From Vibrio sp. SCSIO 43137 (lineage in GTDB: Bacteria > Pseudomonadota > Gammaproteobacteria > Enterobacterales > Vibrionaceae), in the NCBI RefSeq assembly GCF_028201475.1, contig NZ_CP116383.1, positions 992,001-1,056,000 on the forward strand: a stretch of 64,000 nt of DNA. The letters run 5' to 3'. The notes beneath the pieces are model-generated. The model had not been told where the DNA came from and ran no database searches. It was given only the letters and a program-made list of their open reading frames with translations. This document shows, one piece after another, positions 33,404 to 57,818 of this stretch; position 1 is the first letter of the stretch, and every line of letters begins with the position of its first letter. Both the position numbers and the translations under genes were made by a program.

Positions 33404-34150
33404 TTAATCCAGCTTAAAATTAACAGGGATATTGACCCTGTGAACAACAGCGATTCCGTCTTGTTGGTACGCTTTAAATTTCCAGTAAGCAATGGTGTCT
33501 ATAGCCACCTTATCCAGCAGATCATGACCAGATGATTCCAGTATTACTCTTGCCAACTGCTGACCGTTTTTATCTATAGAGACTTCAACCAGAACCCGTC
33601 CCTGATAGCCCTTTTTTCTGGCGATACGCGGATAACGTACTTTGGTTGGTCTGGCAGCAAAGCGCGGTTTTTCTACCAGTTTTGGCTTAGCGGCCACCTG
33701 TGCAACAGAAGAACTTTTGGCAGTTTCTGTTGAAGTCTCGGGTTGTTTTTGTTCTTCTGTTTTTTGTTTTTCTTGCGTTTTTTTAACCGGTTCGGCTTGC
33801 TTTACCTCTGTGACCGATTTTTTAATAATTGGCTTTGGCTTTGGCTTTGGCTTTGGCTTTGGCTTTGGCTTTGGCTTTGGCTTTGGCTTTGGCTTTGGCT
33901 TTGGCTTTGGCTTTGGGGGTGGCGGTTGAACAACTGCTTCTGCTTTGGCTACCGTTTCTTTTGGCTGTTTCTTCTGCTCCGGAGGTCTGTTTTTTGCCGG
34001 GGCTGAGGGAGCACGAAACTGAATATTGACAGCGGTTCCTGCATCATGATCAGAAATTCTCCGTTCGCTAACCTTGGCGGTAGCGGAAAAAAACAGGCTG
34101 TGCAGCAGCATAGACAAAGCCCCACAAAGCACATATCGGCTAATATTCAA
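33404..34150 (-). CDS. tonB: Energy transducer TonB (TonB1 type) with long Pro-Lys spacer
   Basis: A 248-residue periplasm-spanning protein. An N-terminal membrane anchor (5-25) is followed by a spacer containing an uninterrupted Pro-Lys repeat (about residues 76-107), a charged Lys/Glu/Gln region and the C-terminal TonB domain (about 160-248). That domain has RYPRIARKKGYQGRVLVEVS and ends IPVNFKLD. The start codon is TTG (34148-34150), supported by AGGGA 7 bp upstream and by MNISRY, which resembles other Vibrio TonB1 N-termini; the next ATG would cut into the anchor. First gene of the leftward heme operon, with a Fur-box-like palindrome upstream. Confidence 0.93.
   Translation of the reverse strand: MNISRYVLCGALSMLLHSLFFSATAKVSERRISDHDAGTAVNIQFRAPSAPAKNRPPEQKKQPKETVAKAEAVVQPPPPKPKPKPKPKPKPKPKPKPKPKPKPKPKPIIKKSVTEVKQAEPVKKTQEKQKTEEQKQPETSTETAKSSSVAQVAAKPKLVEKPRFAARPTKVRYPRIARKKGYQGRVLVEVSIDKNGQQLARVILESSGHDLLDKVAIDTIAYWKFKAYQQDGIAVVHRVNIPVNFKLD
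33831..33914. repeat. Fourteen tandem hexamers in tonB
   Basis: The unit GGCTTT (CCAAAG in the coding frame, Pro-Lys) is repeated 14 times without a change over 84 bp. Because the unit is two codons, slippage would change spacer length without shifting the frame. Confidence 0.97.
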
Positions 34151-36820: not shown

Positions 36821-38956
36821 ATGTTTAATAAAACACCATTGGCAATGGTTATCGGGGCCCTTGTAGCTGCTCCGGCCGTTGTAAATGCAGAAAACTATAC
36901 TTTTGATGAGGTGGTGGTTTCTGCCACCCGTACCGAGCTTGCAAAGCAAGATGCGCCTTCTTCTATTGAAACTGTCTCTGCGGAGCAGATGGAACAAACC
37001 ATGGCGGGTGATATCAAGCAGGCACTGAAATTCACTCCCGGTGTTGATGTAAAGGGATCAGGCAGATTTGGTATCTCAGGCTTTAATATTCGTGGCGTGG
37101 AAGACAGCCGCATAAAAATGATGATCGATGGTGTTCAGCAGCCAGTGCCATACAGTGCTGGACGTACAGAGCAGAGAAGTTATCCAAACTCTATTGAAAT
37201 CGATACTCTGCAGAGTATCGAAGTGAACAAAGGGCCATCTTCAACCTTGTTCGGCTCAGATGCCCTAGGTGGTGTTGTGCTGCTGAGGACGAAAAACCCT
37301 GAAGATATTCTGCTGACTGACGGTGATGAGCATCGTTTTGGCATTAAATCAGGTTATTCATCGGAAGATGAGCAGTTTAAAAATACTCTGACCTGGGCAA
37401 TGCGTAAGGATAAGCTGGAAACATTAGTTATGGCGACTTATGCCAAAGGCCATGAAACGGAAACCCATGGTTCAGGTTCGACAGTTTCAGGGCCGGACAG
37501 GGGGGCTGCAAACCCGGCGGATAAAGAGCTGGGTAACCTGCTGGCAAAAGCTTTTTACCAGATAAATGACGATCACAGAGTTGGCTTTACTACTGAGTTT
37601 TATAATAAGCAGTACGATGAAAATGAGATCAACTATGAAGGCTATAGTGCAGGCCCCGGCTTTGTGTATACCGACAGCAGTAATAAAGATACTAATAAGC
37701 GGCTGAGAGTTGGCTTTGAACATGAAATGACCATGCAAACCTTGATGGCAGATTCACTGAAATGGTCGGTCAACTATCAAGATTCCAGCACGCTGAACAA
37801 AAACTTTGATAACACTCCGGCAAATGGTAAACGCCTGAGACAAAGAGAGGCGATCAATAAGTCAGTTCAACTGGAATCTCAGCTTTCCAAACTGGTACAG
37901 ATTGGCGATAACAGCCACGAGTTCACTTATGGGGCAAGCTATCGTAACAATGACTTTGAGCTGAAGAATAAGGACATTAAGTTCGATACCAATACGGTTT
38001 CTCCGGGTAGCTCGTTAATTCCGGATGCCAAAGTAACTCAGTGGGGTGTCTTTACTCAGGATCAGGTTTATCTGATGGAGGATCGCTGGGTAGTGACGGC
38101 GGGTCTGCGTTATGACTCCTTCAGGGCTAATCCTTCTGCTGATGAAGCCTACACGGCAAACTATAAGGCTAATAATGACAGCGCACTGACCGGGCGATTA
38201 GGGTCTGCTTATCACCTTAATGACAACTTCACCCTGTTTGGCCAGATAAGTCAGGGCTTTAAGGCTCCGACGATAAATGATCTGTATTACTCCTATAATT
38301 CTTTTGCCATTATCGAAGCCAACCCAGATTTGAAAGCAGAGCGCAGCCTTGCCTATGAGCTTGGTCTGAGAGGTCAGAATGATATTGGTAACTTTGAAAT
38401 TACCACCTTCTACAATGACTATGAGGACTTTATCGCACAGGTAACAACGGGCACCCGTATGGGCAGAACCGTTTACACCAACAAGAACCTTGATGAAGTT
38501 AAGATTTATGGTGCTGAGTTCAGCGGTCAGCTGGATCTGGAAAACACGGTTGATGCACCTCAGGGATCTTACGCCCGTATTGCCGTTACCTATGTGGATG
38601 GTGAAGATAAGAAATCCGGTAAGTCTCTCGATTCGACAGCGCCTCTGACTACTGTGGTTGGTCTTGGTCTGGACAGGGATGCCTTCGGTGGCTTGATGAA
38701 TGTGAAAATGGTTAAAGGAAAAGATGAGTGGCAAACAGATAACAATGTTAAAGCGCCGGGCTATACATTGGTCGACCTAACCGCTTATTACAAGCCGATA
38801 AAAGATCTGAAATTATCTGCCGGGCTGTTTAACGTGTTTGATAAGAAATACTGGCTATACGATGATATCGCCGGCCGTACATCAAGTACTTTCCATATTG
38901 ATGGTAAATCTCAGCCAGGCAGAAACTGGGCTGTTACTCTGGATTACCAGTTTTAA
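36821..38956 (+). CDS. hutA: TonB-dependent outer-membrane heme receptor
   Basis: A 711-residue receptor with a signal peptide (1-23, cleavage after VVNA). The TonB box-like FDEVVVSATRTE comes next, then the plug domain (about 40-150, ending VNKGPSSTLFGSDALGGVVL) and a 22-strand barrel ending in the aromatic signature YQF. The family boxes GFKAPTINDLY (near 479) and NPDLKAERS (near 501) mark it as a hemin receptor type. No His is found between them. It follows hutWXZ by 96 bp with its own AAGGA site and could be co-transcribed. The match to HutA specifically, rather than another heme receptor such as HuvA or HupA, is less certain than the class. Confidence 0.85.
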   Translation: MFNKTPLAMVIGALVAAPAVVNAENYTFDEVVVSATRTELAKQDAPSSIETVSAEQMEQTMAGDIKQALKFTPGVDVKGSGRFGISGFNIRGVEDSRIKMMIDGVQQPVPYSAGRTEQRSYPNSIEIDTLQSIEVNKGPSSTLFGSDALGGVVLLRTKNPEDILLTDGDEHRFGIKSGYSSEDEQFKNTLTWAMRKDKLETLVMATYAKGHETETHGSGSTVSGPDRGAANPADKELGNLLAKAFYQINDDHRVGFTTEFYNKQYDENEINYEGYSAGPGFVYTDSSNKDTNKRLRVGFEHEMTMQTLMADSLKWSVNYQDSSTLNKNFDNTPANGKRLRQREAINKSVQLESQLSKLVQIGDNSHEFTYGASYRNNDFELKNKDIKFDTNTVSPGSSLIPDAKVTQWGVFTQDQVYLMEDRWVVTAGLRYDSFRANPSADEAYTANYKANNDSALTGRLGSAYHLNDNFTLFGQISQGFKAPTINDLYYSYNSFAIIEANPDLKAERSLAYELGLRGQNDIGNFEITTFYNDYEDFIAQVTTGTRMGRTVYTNKNLDEVKIYGAEFSGQLDLENTVDAPQGSYARIAVTYVDGEDKKSGKSLDSTAPLTTVVGLGLDRDAFGGLMNVKMVKGKDEWQTDNNVKAPGYTLVDLTAYYKPIKDLKLSAGLFNVFDKKYWLYDDIAGRTSSTFHIDGKSQPGRNWAVTLDYQF

Positions 38957-38991: not shown

Positions 38992-39103
38992 TTTGTCATA
39001 CTGGAAATAGCGATAAACAAACCCTCCGCGCCAAGGATGGCGCGGCGGAGCCTCATGGATGGGGGTTATGCGTGTTTGTGTTCGCTATTTGCCAAAGTGA
39101 CTT
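38992..39103 (+). repeat. Structured intergenic element, copy 1
   Basis: A 112-bp element also found at 53221-53331. The outer arms AAATAGCGA (39005-39013) and TCGCTATTT (39082-39090) pair, reinforced by ACAAAC/GTTTGT (39017-39022, 39074-39079). Inside are two hairpins: CCGCGCCA/TGGCGCGG (39026-39033, 39038-39045) and CCTCA/TGGGG (39051-39055, 39060-39064). Together they make a three-way junction. It lies downstream of hutA and upstream of the ABC exporter. Confidence 0.85.
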
Positions 39104-39231
39104 ATATTTAACAACAGTTAGTTAGCCGTCCGATCATATAGTCAAGTAATCTAAGAAGTGGTTCTGAACTCTGCATCTTGAGGTCACTTGGGTATAATAG
39201 AGAGGACGGCTTTTTAAATTGGAAGTAAATC

Positions 39232-41028
39232 GTGTCGGACAACGCCTTATTTGAACTCAATACAAAATGGTTACTCAGGGAAGCGGGTAAGCATAAAAAC
39301 AAACTGATTTTTGCCAATATCGTGGCTCTGTTTGCTGCCCTTATCAGCATTCCTATTCCGCTGTTACTACCCTTATTGGTGGATGAAGTTTTACTTGGCC
39401 AGCCGGCTGGCGGATTAAACCTGCTCAACTATCTGTTGCCTGAATCTCTACAAACTCCGCAGGGCTATATAGCACTTGTGCTGCTGCTGGTAATTGTAAT
39501 GCGGATCAGCAGTCAGGCACTGAATATTCTTCAGACAAGGCAGTTTACCCTTATCTCTAAAACCCTTACCTGCTTTTTGCGTCAGCAGATCTTAGCCAAG
39601 CTGGGCAGAATCAGCATGCGCCAATACGAAGAGCGGGGCAGCGGGGCACTAACCTCTCATCTGGTTACCGATATAGAAACCATAGACAGCTTTATCAGTT
39701 CCAGCCTTAGTCGCTTTGTTGTCAGTGTATTAAGCACTATTGGTATCTCACTGGTGCTTTTCTGGCTCGACTGGAAACTGGCACTGTTTATCATTCTGCT
39801 TAACCCGGTGATTATCTACTTCTCCAAAAAGATGGGGCAACGGGTTAAGGTACTGAAAAAACGCGAAAACAGATCTTTTGAGCGTTTTCAGCAGCGGTTG
39901 GTGGAGACACTGGACGGCCTGTATCAGCTTCGTGCTTCAAACCGGGAAAGAGAGTACCTGAACAGGCTAAAGCAAGATGCCGAATCTATCCGGCAGGATG
40001 CCGACAGCTTCGCATGGCAGTCCGATGCGGCGAACCGAATCTCTTTTCTGCTATTCCTGTTGGGCTTTGAAGTTTTCCGCGCCGTTTCAATGGTGATGGT
40101 GCTGTGGGGCGACCTTACTGTGGGGCAGATTATTGCAGTATTTGGTTATCTATGGTTTTTGCTCTCGCCGATACAGGACTTGTTAAGCATTCAATATTCA
40201 TGGTTTGGTGCTTCAGCGGCAATGAAACGGTTAAACAGCATTCTTCATCTGGAAGAGGAGCAGAAGAGTCGGGCGGTTATCAACCCATTCCAGCCTAATA
40301 CTTCGTTTGATATTGAACTGAAAAATATCGATTTTTCTTATAATGAAGAGCGAAAGATTATCGATGATCTCAGCCTGCATATTCCGCAAGGTAAGCGGGT
40401 GGCACTGGTCGGCGCCTCCGGTGGCGGTAAATCTACCCTGATCCAGTTGCTGCTCGGTATTTATCAGAAAAATAGCGGCGAGATATTGATAAACGGTCAC
40501 CCCATTGAGCAAGTCGGTTATGACCAGTTACGGGAGAAACTGGCCGTTGTATTGCAGCAGCCGATGATTTTTAACGATACGTTAAGAGAAAATCTGACGC
40601 TCGGTGAAGAGATAGCAGAGAGCCGCTTGTGGCATGCGCTGGAAGTCGCCCAGCTTAAAGAGTTTGTCGAAGGCTTGAGTGATACCCTTGATGCAGAACT
40701 TGGCCGTCAGGGGGTACGTCTGTCAGGAGGACAGAGACAGAGGCTGGCGATTGCCCGTATGGTACTGGCTAACCCGGATCTGGTTATTCTGGATGAAGCA
40801 ACTTCAGCACTGGATACCTCGACAGAAGCAGCATTACATTCGGCACTAAATGAGTTTCTTGACGGCAGGACGGTACTGATTGTGGCTCACCGGTTGTCGG
40901 CAGTGAAACAAGCTGATTTGATCTATGTGCTGGAGGACGGCAAGGTGATTCAGACCGGCCGCCACCATGAACTGGTTAATGAGGACGGGCTGTATCAGAC
41001 TCTATACGGTTCTCTTCAGGCAGGCTAG
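39232..41028 (+). CDS. ABC exporter, fused permease-ATPase
   Basis: A 598-residue half-transporter of the exporter type. The membrane domain (about 20-320) has six helices, and the nucleotide-binding domain (360-598) carries Walker A GASGGGKST (394-402), signature LSGGQRQ (497-503) and Walker B LVILDEATSALD (517-528). No peptidase domain is present. The substrate cannot be deduced; lipid, peptide or drug export are all possible. The start is GTG 39232. It lies between the heme locus and rne, and the GNAT gene follows within 2 bp, so the pair forms a small operon. Whether it belongs functionally to either neighbour is unknown. Confidence 0.88.
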   Translation: MSDNALFELNTKWLLREAGKHKNKLIFANIVALFAALISIPIPLLLPLLVDEVLLGQPAGGLNLLNYLLPESLQTPQGYIALVLLLVIVMRISSQALNILQTRQFTLISKTLTCFLRQQILAKLGRISMRQYEERGSGALTSHLVTDIETIDSFISSSLSRFVVSVLSTIGISLVLFWLDWKLALFIILLNPVIIYFSKKMGQRVKVLKKRENRSFERFQQRLVETLDGLYQLRASNREREYLNRLKQDAESIRQDADSFAWQSDAANRISFLLFLLGFEVFRAVSMVMVLWGDLTVGQIIAVFGYLWFLLSPIQDLLSIQYSWFGASAAMKRLNSILHLEEEQKSRAVINPFQPNTSFDIELKNIDFSYNEERKIIDDLSLHIPQGKRVALVGASGGGKSTLIQLLLGIYQKNSGEILINGHPIEQVGYDQLREKLAVVLQQPMIFNDTLRENLTLGEEIAESRLWHALEVAQLKEFVEGLSDTLDAELGRQGVRLSGGQRQRLAIARMVLANPDLVILDEATSALDTSTEAALHSALNEFLDGRTVLIVAHRLSAVKQADLIYVLEDGKVIQTGRHHELVNEDGLYQTLYGSLQAG

Positions 41029-51869: not shown

Positions 51870-53117
51870 GTGTCCAAGCGTCGTGTTGTAATCACTGGCA
51901 TGGGTATGTTGTCACCGGTAGGCAACAATGTAGAATCCTCGTGGAAAGCCCTGTTAGCAGGTCAAAGTGGTATCGTTGATATCGAGCACTTTGATACATC
52001 CGAATTCACTACTCGTTTTGCAGGTCTGGTTAAAGACTTTGACTGTGAAGCGTATATGTCTAAGAAAGATGCCCGGAAAATGGATCTGTTTATCCAGTAC
52101 GGCATCGCAGCTGGTATGCAGGCACTGGATGACTCTGGTTTGCCTGTAACAGAAGAGAACGCAGCCCGCGTTGGTGTTGCTATTGGCTCTGGTATTGGCG
52201 GTTTAGGCTTAATTGAAACAGGCCATAGTGCGTTGGTGAACAAAGGTCCACGTAAGATCAGTCCTTTCTTTGTTCCGTCTACCATTGTGAACATGATTGC
52301 CGGTCACCTTTCTATTATGAAAGGCCTGCGCGGTCCGAATATCGCTATCTCTACGGCTTGTACTACTGGTCTGCACAATATCGGTCACGCTGCCCGTATG
52401 ATCGCTTATGGTGATGCAGACGCTATGGTCGCCGGTGGTGCGGAAAAAGCATCTACACCTCTTGGTATGGGCGGTTTTGCTGCCGCTAAAGCGCTTTCTA
52501 CCCGTAACGATGAGCCGCAAAAAGCGTCTCGCCCTTGGGATAAAGACAGAGATGGCTTTGTTCTGGGTGATGGTGCCGGTGTGATGGTACTGGAAGAGTA
52601 CGAACACGCCAAAGCCCGTGGTGCCAAAATCTACTGTGAGCTGGTTGGCTTCGGTATGAGTGGTGATGCTTACCATATGACAGCACCAAGTGAAGACGGT
52701 TCAGGTGGTGCTCTGGCAATGGAAGCGGCTATGCGTGATGCTGGTGTTACTGGTGAGCAGATCGGTTATGTTAACGCACACGGTACTTCTACACCGGCTG
52801 GTGACGTTGCTGAGCTGAGAGGCATTAAGCGCGCTCTGGGTGAAGAAGGTTCTAAGCAGGTGCTGGTTTCTTCAACCAAGTCTATGACTGGTCACCTTCT
52901 GGGTGCAGCGGGCTCTGTTGAAGCGATTATCACCGCTATGAGTCTGGTAGACCAAATGGTTCCGCCGACAATCAATCTGGACAATCCGGATGAAGGTTGT
53001 GATATAGACCTTGTTCCTCACACTGCCCGTAAAGTGGATATGGAATATGCCCTTTGTAACTCGTTTGGATTTGGCGGAACCAATGGTTCGCTGATCTTTA
53101 AGAAAGTAAGCGAGTAA
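51870..53117 (+). CDS. fabF: 3-oxoacyl-ACP synthase II
   Basis: Elongates acyl-ACP and makes cis-vaccenate. The 415 residues contain the catalytic Cys in [13 protein letters not shown] (Cys164), His in [11 protein letters not shown] near 304 and His in [11 protein letters not shown] near 341. The start is GTG 51870 ([13 protein letters not shown]) with GGAG upstream. A terminator follows at 53161. Confidence 0.97.
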
Positions 53118-53192: not shown

Positions 53193-53220
53193 TTTGCGCT
53201 ACAGCATTATTCATCAAGAG

Positions 53221-53331
53221 TTTGTCGCAAAGGAAACAGCGATAAGCAAACCCTCCGTGCCAGGGAGGGCACGGCGGAGCCCCATGGATGGGTTTACGCG
53301 TGTTTGTATTCGATGTTTGTTAGAGTGACTT
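53221..53331 (+). repeat. Structured intergenic element, copy 2
   Basis: A 111-bp relative of 38992-39103 in the same orientation. Outer arms AAACAGCGA (53234-53242) and TCGATGTTT (53310-53318); inner hairpins CCGTGCC/GGCACGG (53255-53261, 53268-53274) and CCCA/TGGG (53281-53284, 53289-53292). Versus copy 1, the T-A pair becomes C-G in the outer stem and a C-G pair becomes T-A in the inner stem. It occupies most of the 367-bp fabF-pabC gap; nothing else was seen there except the fabF terminator. Confidence 0.85.
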
Positions 53332-53484: not shown

Positions 53485-54288
53485 ATGTTTTGGGTTAACG
53501 GAGAACCCGCCACACAAGTGTCTGTTTCTGACCGTTCATTTCAGTATGGTGATGGTTGCTTTACCACCATATTGACACGAAATGGTAAGCCGGAGTTCTG
53601 GCAGTTTCACAAGGAACGGTTGCAGGCTTGTCTGGATCTGCTGGAGATTACTCAGCCTGACTGGCAGCAGGTACTGTTGTGGCTGGAGAAAGCAGCACTA
53701 ACGGAACAGCAAGCTGGCTTAAAGCTGCATATCAGCAGGGGAGCCTGCGGCAGGGGCTACAGCCCGCTTGGAATATGCACGCCACAAATTACTATTAGCC
53801 ACTTTGCCTACCCGCAACATTACCCTGACTGGCAAAGTAGGGGAGTAGCGTTAGGCATTTGTCAGCGCCGTCTGGGTCATAACCCTATGCTGGCCGGACA
53901 TAAGCATAATAATCGTCTGGAGCAGGTATTAATTAAGTCAGAGGCGGATAAGCTGGGTTATCAGGATGCGCTGGTTTTTGATATTCAGCATAAGGTGATT
54001 GAAACCACCATGGCGAACCTTTTCTGGGTAAAAGATGGTGTGCTATATACGCCTGACCTGTCTGATTGTGGTGTAGCAGGCGTGGCGCGGCGAAGAGTGC
54101 TTCAGCTTGCCGAAAGCTGCGGAATAGAATTAAAAATTGCTCAGTATGAAGCTGAGCACGTTTATAAAGCTGATGAAGTCTTTATAACCAACTCAATACT
54201 GACGGTTGCGCCAGTCTGCAAAATTGCAGATAAAGCCTTTCAGATTGGATCACTAACACGAGATTTTCAGAGGAAGTACAGTTCGTGA
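53485..54288 (+). CDS. pabC: Aminodeoxychorismate lyase
   Basis: A PLP enzyme that makes p-aminobenzoate for folate. The 267 residues start MFWVNGEPATQVSVSDRSFQ, with FQYGDGCFTTI near 24-34, the Lys region GHKHNNRLEQVLIKSEADKL near 138-157 and ETTMANLFWVKDG near 173-185. The stop overlaps the mltG start by 4 bp. Confidence 0.95.
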   Translation: MFWVNGEPATQVSVSDRSFQYGDGCFTTILTRNGKPEFWQFHKERLQACLDLLEITQPDWQQVLLWLEKAALTEQQAGLKLHISRGACGRGYSPLGICTPQITISHFAYPQHYPDWQSRGVALGICQRRLGHNPMLAGHKHNNRLEQVLIKSEADKLGYQDALVFDIQHKVIETTMANLFWVKDGVLYTPDLSDCGVAGVARRRVLQLAESCGIELKIAQYEAEHVYKADEVFITNSILTVAPVCKIADKAFQIGSLTRDFQRKYSS

Positions 54289-57692: not shown

Positions 57693-57720
57693 AAACCACA
57701 GTTAAATACTGTGGCTTTTT
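57693..57720 (+). terminator. Terminator of the pabC-tatD operon
   Basis: CCACAGT (57696-57702), loop TAAAT, ACTGTGG (57708-57714), CTTTTTAAT. Confidence 0.88.
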
Positions 57721-57818
57721 AATATCTGCCCGATGGCAAAATCTGTAGCACAATTAGAAGCAGTTATTTAGTCAGAGCTTTAGAAAGATAAGAATAAGAA
57801 ACAGATTTTCAAAATAAA

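Follow-up and report, generated by a model that had tools for sequence, protein, structure and literature searches.

What recurs in two intergenic gaps of the window, the whole 64,000-nucleotide stretch of Vibrio sp. SCSIO 43137 DNA analysed here, and in which form, DNA or RNA, is its fold under constraint? Both copies lie where an earlier note had placed them from the letters alone, copy 1 with a TonB-dependent receptor gene (36821-38956) on one side and an ABC transporter gene (39232-41028) on the other, copy 2 between a beta-ketoacyl synthase gene (51870-53117, the note's fabF) and an aminotransferase class IV gene (53485-54288). The base changes from which the note argued for a maintained fold are borne out as well: T39008-A39087 becomes C53237-G53315 and C39029-G39042 becomes T53258-A53271; copy 2 has also lost one outer pair, G53239 standing opposite A53313. 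The description as two copies of about 111 bp holds in that both are present and needs revision in its extent, since copy 1 reaches further, intact copies measure about 164 bp, and the window holds a third, partial copy (Table 1). Overlooked at that stage were a CsrA/RsmA motif in both loops and a kinship with the YPAL and TwoAYGGAY families. A repeat scan also marks a tandem array of TTTGGC units at 33817-33935 of the window.

Table 1. Parts of the repeat in the window, with Ysr224 matches in loci from other genomes
Feature	Position	Strand	Remark
Copy 1: core, right arm and right terminal inverted repeat; left arm degenerate	38992..39125	+	
Copy 1, hairpin 1, GCC-AAGGAT-GGC	39030..39041	+	Loop with closing pair CAAGGATG fits CANGGANG
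Copy 1, hairpin 2, loop with closing pair CATGGATG	39054..39061	+	Fits CANGGANG
Copy 1, right terminal inverted repeat CAGTTAGTTAG	39115..39125	+	10/11 bases of CAGTTATTTAG
Copy 2: core; both ends degenerate	53217..53331	+	
Copy 2, hairpin 1, loop with closing pair CAGGGAGG	53261..53268	+	Fits CANGGANG
Copy 2, hairpin 2, loop with closing pair CATGGATG	53283..53290	+	Fits CANGGANG
Third copy, partial: first 56 bases of the element with terminal repeat CTAAATAACTG, without core	57716-57771	-	
Ysr224 at its cut-off	L204:3111-3217, L214:4184-4290, L206:7247-7352, L226:638-745	opposite strand	

With copy 1 as query, 41 stretches of the host genome (4.94 Mb, two contigs) match at E<=0.001, and the element is thus a repeat family of about 40 copies there, far beyond chance. 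A longer query adds four more partial places, among them the third copy in the window and one that consists of the ends only. The intact unit of about 164 bp is bounded by inverted ends, CTAAATAACTG and CAGTTATTTAG; both match at 9 or more of 11 bases in nine of the 39 host copies that we took out with their flanks for analysis. Many copies are truncated, and seven are at least 90% identical to the consensus across their whole or nearly whole length, which suggests that these seven spread more recently than the many degraded ones. At C2:466429-466496 of the host genome lies a 68-base derivative with both element ends and no core, possibly a core-less mini-element. Three other copies (L032, L034 and L038) lack about 22 bases between the two GGAT repeats, leaving the two hairpins fused into one, and look like products of slippage between direct repeats.

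The core folds as a stem enclosing two hairpins. On the + strand copy 1 reaches -51.2 kcal/mol (z -5.5; -5.3 for the opposite strand) and copy 2 reaches -38.8 kcal/mol (z -2.5; -1.8 for the opposite strand). The canonical fold is not the lowest in energy for copy 2 alone, forcing both canonical loops costing 0.6 kcal/mol, so the two-copy comparison of the earlier note was thin by itself. Folding alone also assigns hairpin 2 its hexaloop with a median probability of 0.39 across 22 host copies, with a competing register that places GGA in a seven-base loop. Comparison among the copies is far more informative. When 29 of the 39 host copies are aligned (ten truncated or interrupted ones omitted), 96.3% of 841 cells are paired, against 38-53% in slid controls, and 12 of the 29 pairs carry double changes, a number that none of 500 shuffles attained. 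Because the host copies are related to each other, we widened the search to other genomes, from which 89 model matches were obtained in 81 of 90 chosen loci (genomes of the class and named records). Here 97.4% of cells are paired (56.8% when shuffled, 36-45% when slid), double changes fill 1004 cells vs 285 in shuffles, and the covariation score is 0.952 vs 0.201, in an alignment that is biased towards the model to which it was fitted. A double change occurs in 28 of 29 pairs, hardly more than in shuffles (mean 26.4; 5 of 500 reach this number), because nearly all pairs vary at cross-genus distance. The search of the whole genome on which the earlier note had staked its reading thus returned about 40 copies with covariation among them, and the view that a folded nucleic acid is maintained is supported, both in the host genome and across genera.

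Which strand is constrained can be read from the imperfect pairs. If double-stranded DNA alone mattered, G·U and A·C wobbles would be expected to be equally common; in a MAFFT alignment of the host copies we count 49 G·U vs 12 A·C cells, or 14 vs 4 pairs (p 0.03, a value made optimistic by relatedness among the sites), and in the model alignment 68 vs 11 cells. The same leaning appears in hairpin 1 at 89 distinct sites selected by loop pattern alone, where G·T outnumbers A·C by 17 to 0 over the first five free pairs and by 21 to 2 at positions 6 and 7; at positions 8 and 9, which we read as past the stem, the counts are 2 G·T and 61 A·C. The wobbles favour the + strand, so it is a single strand, with GGA in its loops, that appears constrained. 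The simplest reading is that the constrained form would be RNA rather than single-stranded DNA.

The loops themselves suggest what such an RNA might bind. Loop and closing pair together spell C-A-N-G-G-A-N-G in either hairpin. Among 84 loops of hairpin 1 the C, the A, the first G and the closing G are invariant, the second G is kept in 82 and the second A in 83; the first N is any base, and the second is mostly U (76), also C, A or G. Hairpin 2 keeps its fixed letters in 85-87 of 87 loops, again with any base at the first N, and has U (57), C (24), A (3) or G (3) at the second. These counts leave out loops of non-standard length (5 in hairpin 1 and 2 in hairpin 2, out of 89 each) and include loops selected by a pattern that fixes some of the letters; among matches found by the model only, the model having been trained on host copies, CANGGANG is present in 38 of 42 for hairpin 1 and in 39 of 42 for hairpin 2. 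CsrA regulates translation and mRNA stability on a global scale. The RsmA/CsrA consensus is given as A/U-CANGGANG-U/A (PMC6849547, citing Schubert et al. 2007). The most variable positions of the loops compared here are those left free in the published motif, and the element has the features of a CsrA/RsmA-type site, namely CANGGANG, GGA in a hairpin loop, and sites in pairs. We infer that the core is a predicted CsrA-binding RNA, which would lower CsrA activity.

A covariance model of the core (R1) was used to search other genomes; because these searches score only the best candidates per genome (32 in the genus, 10 in the class and 9 in the phylum), copy numbers there are lower bounds. The core is present in 10 of the 118 genus members searched, in keeping with what the earlier note says of similar elements in other Vibrio genomes, and in 46 of 369 genomes, or 42 of 272 genera, of the class. 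At a stricter cut-off 21 of 398 phylum genomes carry it, all 21 from the same class, the share of the 398 that lies outside the class being unstated. Scanning a collection of named genomes by pattern, independently of the model, returned at least 120 stretches; among the matches listed (80 records) are Stenotrophomonas, Marinobacter, Zobellella, Oceanisphaera, Yersinia, Pantoea, Pectobacterium, Shewanella, Sodalis and Salinivibrio, and the titles among the matches listed are gammaproteobacterial or unclassified. The ends vary from genome to genome. Compared over 9 to 20 copies per genome among genus members, they are CTAAATAACTG-like in the host genome and G098, and ATACCAT/ATACCAA-like in G091 and G039; the unit of G072 extends scarcely beyond the core and has a lengthened stem. 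A constant core between unlike ends points to selection acting on the core.

The family is real, conserved and mobile-looking, and is best explained as the carrier of a putative dual CsrA site. We propose, with a probability of roughly 0.55, that the element, about 164 bases long, is a non-autonomous repeat which an IS630-like transposase likely moved, and that its conserved two-hairpin fold would serve as a scattered CsrA decoy when transcribed. A TA-inserting (IS630-like) transposase would spread the repeat with CTAG as its target; in a transcribed copy the two loops would bind one CsrA dimer; and those copies covered in the sense direction by read-through transcription would titrate CsrA in trans.

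The first step of this scheme rests on the ends and surroundings of the copies. A role as a miniature mobile element, one of those that the earlier note had listed, is supported by the ends, the copy number, the patchy distribution, the widened gap around copy 2 and one insertion site. The gap containing copy 2 measures about 380 bases in the host vs about 80-110 in the six relatives read (G103, G022, G041, G029, G093 and G113). At another host copy, L004, the element ends exactly at the stop codon of the neighbouring gene and has TA on both sides, with flanks C-TA and TA-G. In each of the 29 relatives read the stop codon has the same codon position; TA is present there in 25 and the full CTAG in 7. 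This is consistent with, and not proof of, CTAG as the target and duplication of its TA; because the relatives are only 70-78% identical, they offer no exact empty site. IS630-family elements are said, in the title of one paper, to prefer CTAG. The terminal inverted repeats adjoin TA, and full-length copies inspected by eye show no consistent longer target duplications. TA duplication is a mark of IS630/Tc1/mariner transposition (PMC2170065), and the element was likely moved by a TA-inserting transposase, presumably of an IS630-like type. No DDE_3 (IS630-type) transposase, the only such family tested, is found in the host genome, so an IS630-like partner would have been lost or would have been elsewhere.

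An unlikely alternative is that the fold is a feature of DNA transposition, the hairpins of the + strand being recognised as single-stranded DNA by a transposase, as in IS200/IS605- or REP-like systems, with CsrA uninvolved. A constraint on single-stranded DNA would yield the same wobble bias, and the retention of the core while the ends change, together with the even orientation to genes described below, would fit as well; set against this, terminal inverted repeats beside TA resemble double-strand cut-and-paste, the core-less, ends-only derivative noted above suggests that the core may be dispensable for the presence of a copy, and the loops match the CsrA motif even in which positions vary. 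Linkage to a REP-type transposase, for which the earlier note had proposed to look, finds no support: the sole Y1_Tnp gene found in the host genome (C1:2985666) is IS200-like by Pfam, and none of the element copies among the matches listed lies within 20 kb of it.

Returning to a CsrA decoy as the preferred reading, the placement of copies relative to genes bears on whether an effect would be exerted in cis or in trans. The 39 host copies comprise 11 in tandem sense, 17 in tandem antisense, 7 convergent and 4 divergent positions. For four other genus members, 76 copies could be classified out of 80 fetched from the matches listed (17 sense, 17 antisense, 35 convergent and 7 divergent), and for named records 91 sites out of 120 pattern-scan loci, matches near an edge or without flanking 120-aa ORFs being excluded (24, 24, 28 and 15). 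Orientation was judged from longest-ORF gene calls, which are noisy in GC-rich genomes, and shows no bias to genes, tandem copies being 52 sense vs 58 antisense over the three sets. A role in sense mRNA had predicted such a bias, and was set aside when none was seen in any of the three sets. The absence of a sense-direction preference weakens the case for a fixed role in cis on the mRNA of the upstream gene; the even orientation leaves titration in trans or no host role as readings; a host effect would accordingly be expected in trans.

Improbable for the same reason is a cis role at gene 3' ends, in which the copies would form mRNA end structures that block exonucleases, or that raise or lower the stability of the upstream transcript, whether CsrA takes part or not. 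Copies do lie near gene 3' ends, only 4 of the 39 in the host falling between divergent genes, and convergent gaps dominate in G091 and G039 (29 of 45 fetched copies); the similar numbers of tandem sense and antisense copies are what one would expect if gene 3' ends did no more than offer safe places to land. Precedents come from ERIC, reported to affect upstream transcripts, and from YPAL, for which co-expression with upstream genes and a possible effect on their stability are reported (both PMC2229807). Copies into which a gene reads keep both loop motifs more often than others (57 of 70 vs 28 of 45, p 0.03), in a comparison that was pooled over genomes and chosen post hoc, with neither set significant alone (p 0.33 and 0.32). 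That the element is a plain selfish repeat, its fold a by-product of an inverted-repeat origin and its loops inherited from a master copy without function, would suit the patchy distribution in the genus and the many truncated copies, and is very improbable: pairs covary and wobbles lean to one side, in the host genome as in many genera, and the core stays the same where the ends differ.

The host genome has one csrA match. Within the class, a CsrA match is found in 43 of 46 element-positive vs 270 of 323 element-negative genomes, an association short of significance (p 0.12, and p 0.10 when only genomes of at least 90% completeness are counted). The three element-positive genomes without a detected CsrA are G125 (75% complete), G186 (88%) and G313 (98%, in about 270 contigs); the locus fetched from G186 (L075) retains one of the two motifs and that from G313 (L090) both. 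If dispersed copies with two CsrA sites each are transcribed, regulatory decoys would come from mobile elements as well as from dedicated sponge RNAs, and a dual CsrA site would give a reason for a core that stays constant while the ends of the element change.

Among known systems, the dedicated CsrA antagonists CsrB, CsrC and RsmX/Y/Z are sRNA genes. They share with the Vibrio element hairpins with GGA loops, generally paired (PMC4383904, PMC4333381). Unlike them, the Vibrio element is a dispersed repeat with no promoter shown. Its mobile side recalls other families: ERIC, Correia/NEMIS and RUP are likewise small, with terminal inverted repeats and TA at their ends (PMC2229807). IS630-type MITEs likewise have terminal inverted repeats, here CTAAATAACTG/CAGTTATTTAG, the difference being that a DDE_3 partner transposase with the same ends is not found in the host genome. 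We know of no named TA-inserting MITE or IS630-family element with the two-hairpin core of the Vibrio family. Vic-1 is a V. cholerae repeat family of 184 nt (PMC2267715).

Closer in its core is YPAL/RU-2, described by Delihas as an intergenic, multi-copy, mobile repeat (PMC2229807, PMC2759123). Its length, 168, is near the 164 of the Vibrio element, both have the two-hairpin core, and a 45-column stretch of RU-2 (PMC2759123) aligns with copy 1 through both loops, the local alignment of copy 1 (L001) with RU-2 covering positions 60-105; Yersinia loci L204 and L176, both matches of model R1, align with RU-2 too. In contrast, the arms and ends of YPAL/RU-2 fail to align with the Vibrio element, and the published account of YPAL (PMC2229807) gives it ends free of TA and target duplications of 3-26 bp, features absent from the Vibrio element, whose inverted ends adjoin TA. 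CsrA does not occur in the accessible text of that YPAL review (PMC2229807). Among the papers listed by our searches none links CsrA or RsmA with YPAL or ERIC, in a literature whose subscription part was mostly uncovered and may contain earlier reports, and for CsrA with miniature inverted repeats the searches gave work on mRNA decay in a Gram-positive.

TwoAYGGAY (RF01731) has an outer stem, two hairpins and A-Y-GGA-Y loops. The Vibrio loops have this feature, better written as ANGGAN with any base at position 2; copy 1 nonetheless scores 20.2 bits against a cut-off of 43, copy 2 is not among the matches listed, and one of 38 loci from other genomes reaches the cut-off (1 of 20 and 0 of 18). 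In the window, Rfam at its curated cut-offs gives no match; a weak isrJ match in copy 1 (15.6 bits) is taken as chance. TwoAYGGAY was tabulated as a candidate RNA, without description as a mobile repeat in the accessible part of that source (PMC2864571), and was proposed as CsrA-binding by Gardner and Eldai (PMC4333381). Ysr224 (RF02770) matches the minus strand of copy 1 at 29.4 bits (E 3.8e-5) and of copy 2 at 16.6 bits (E 0.18), both below its cut-off of 70, and is an sRNA model of the strand opposite the CsrA-type loops. That cut-off is reached on the minus strand of YPAL-type copies from Yersinia, Samsonia, Sodalis and Pectobacterium (Table 1), and because it is reached opposite the CsrA-type loops of these repeats, the Ysr224 'sRNA' family models the antisense strand of the repeat.

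We tentatively suggest, as a possibility with the odds against it, that YPAL, TwoAYGGAY-like sequences and the Vibrio family belong to a single superfamily. What they share would be an RNA module with a dual CsrA site, portable enough for mobile elements whose ends are unrelated to have carried it through the gammaproteobacteria, and the copy number of such a mobile repeat would partly set the CsrA-titrating capacity of a genome. CsrA binding has already been proposed for the related TwoAYGGAY, and what is new, as far as our searches show, is the joining of these families as one mobile CsrA-site module. If such repeats are transcribed, a palindromic repeat family described some twenty years ago would gain a testable function.
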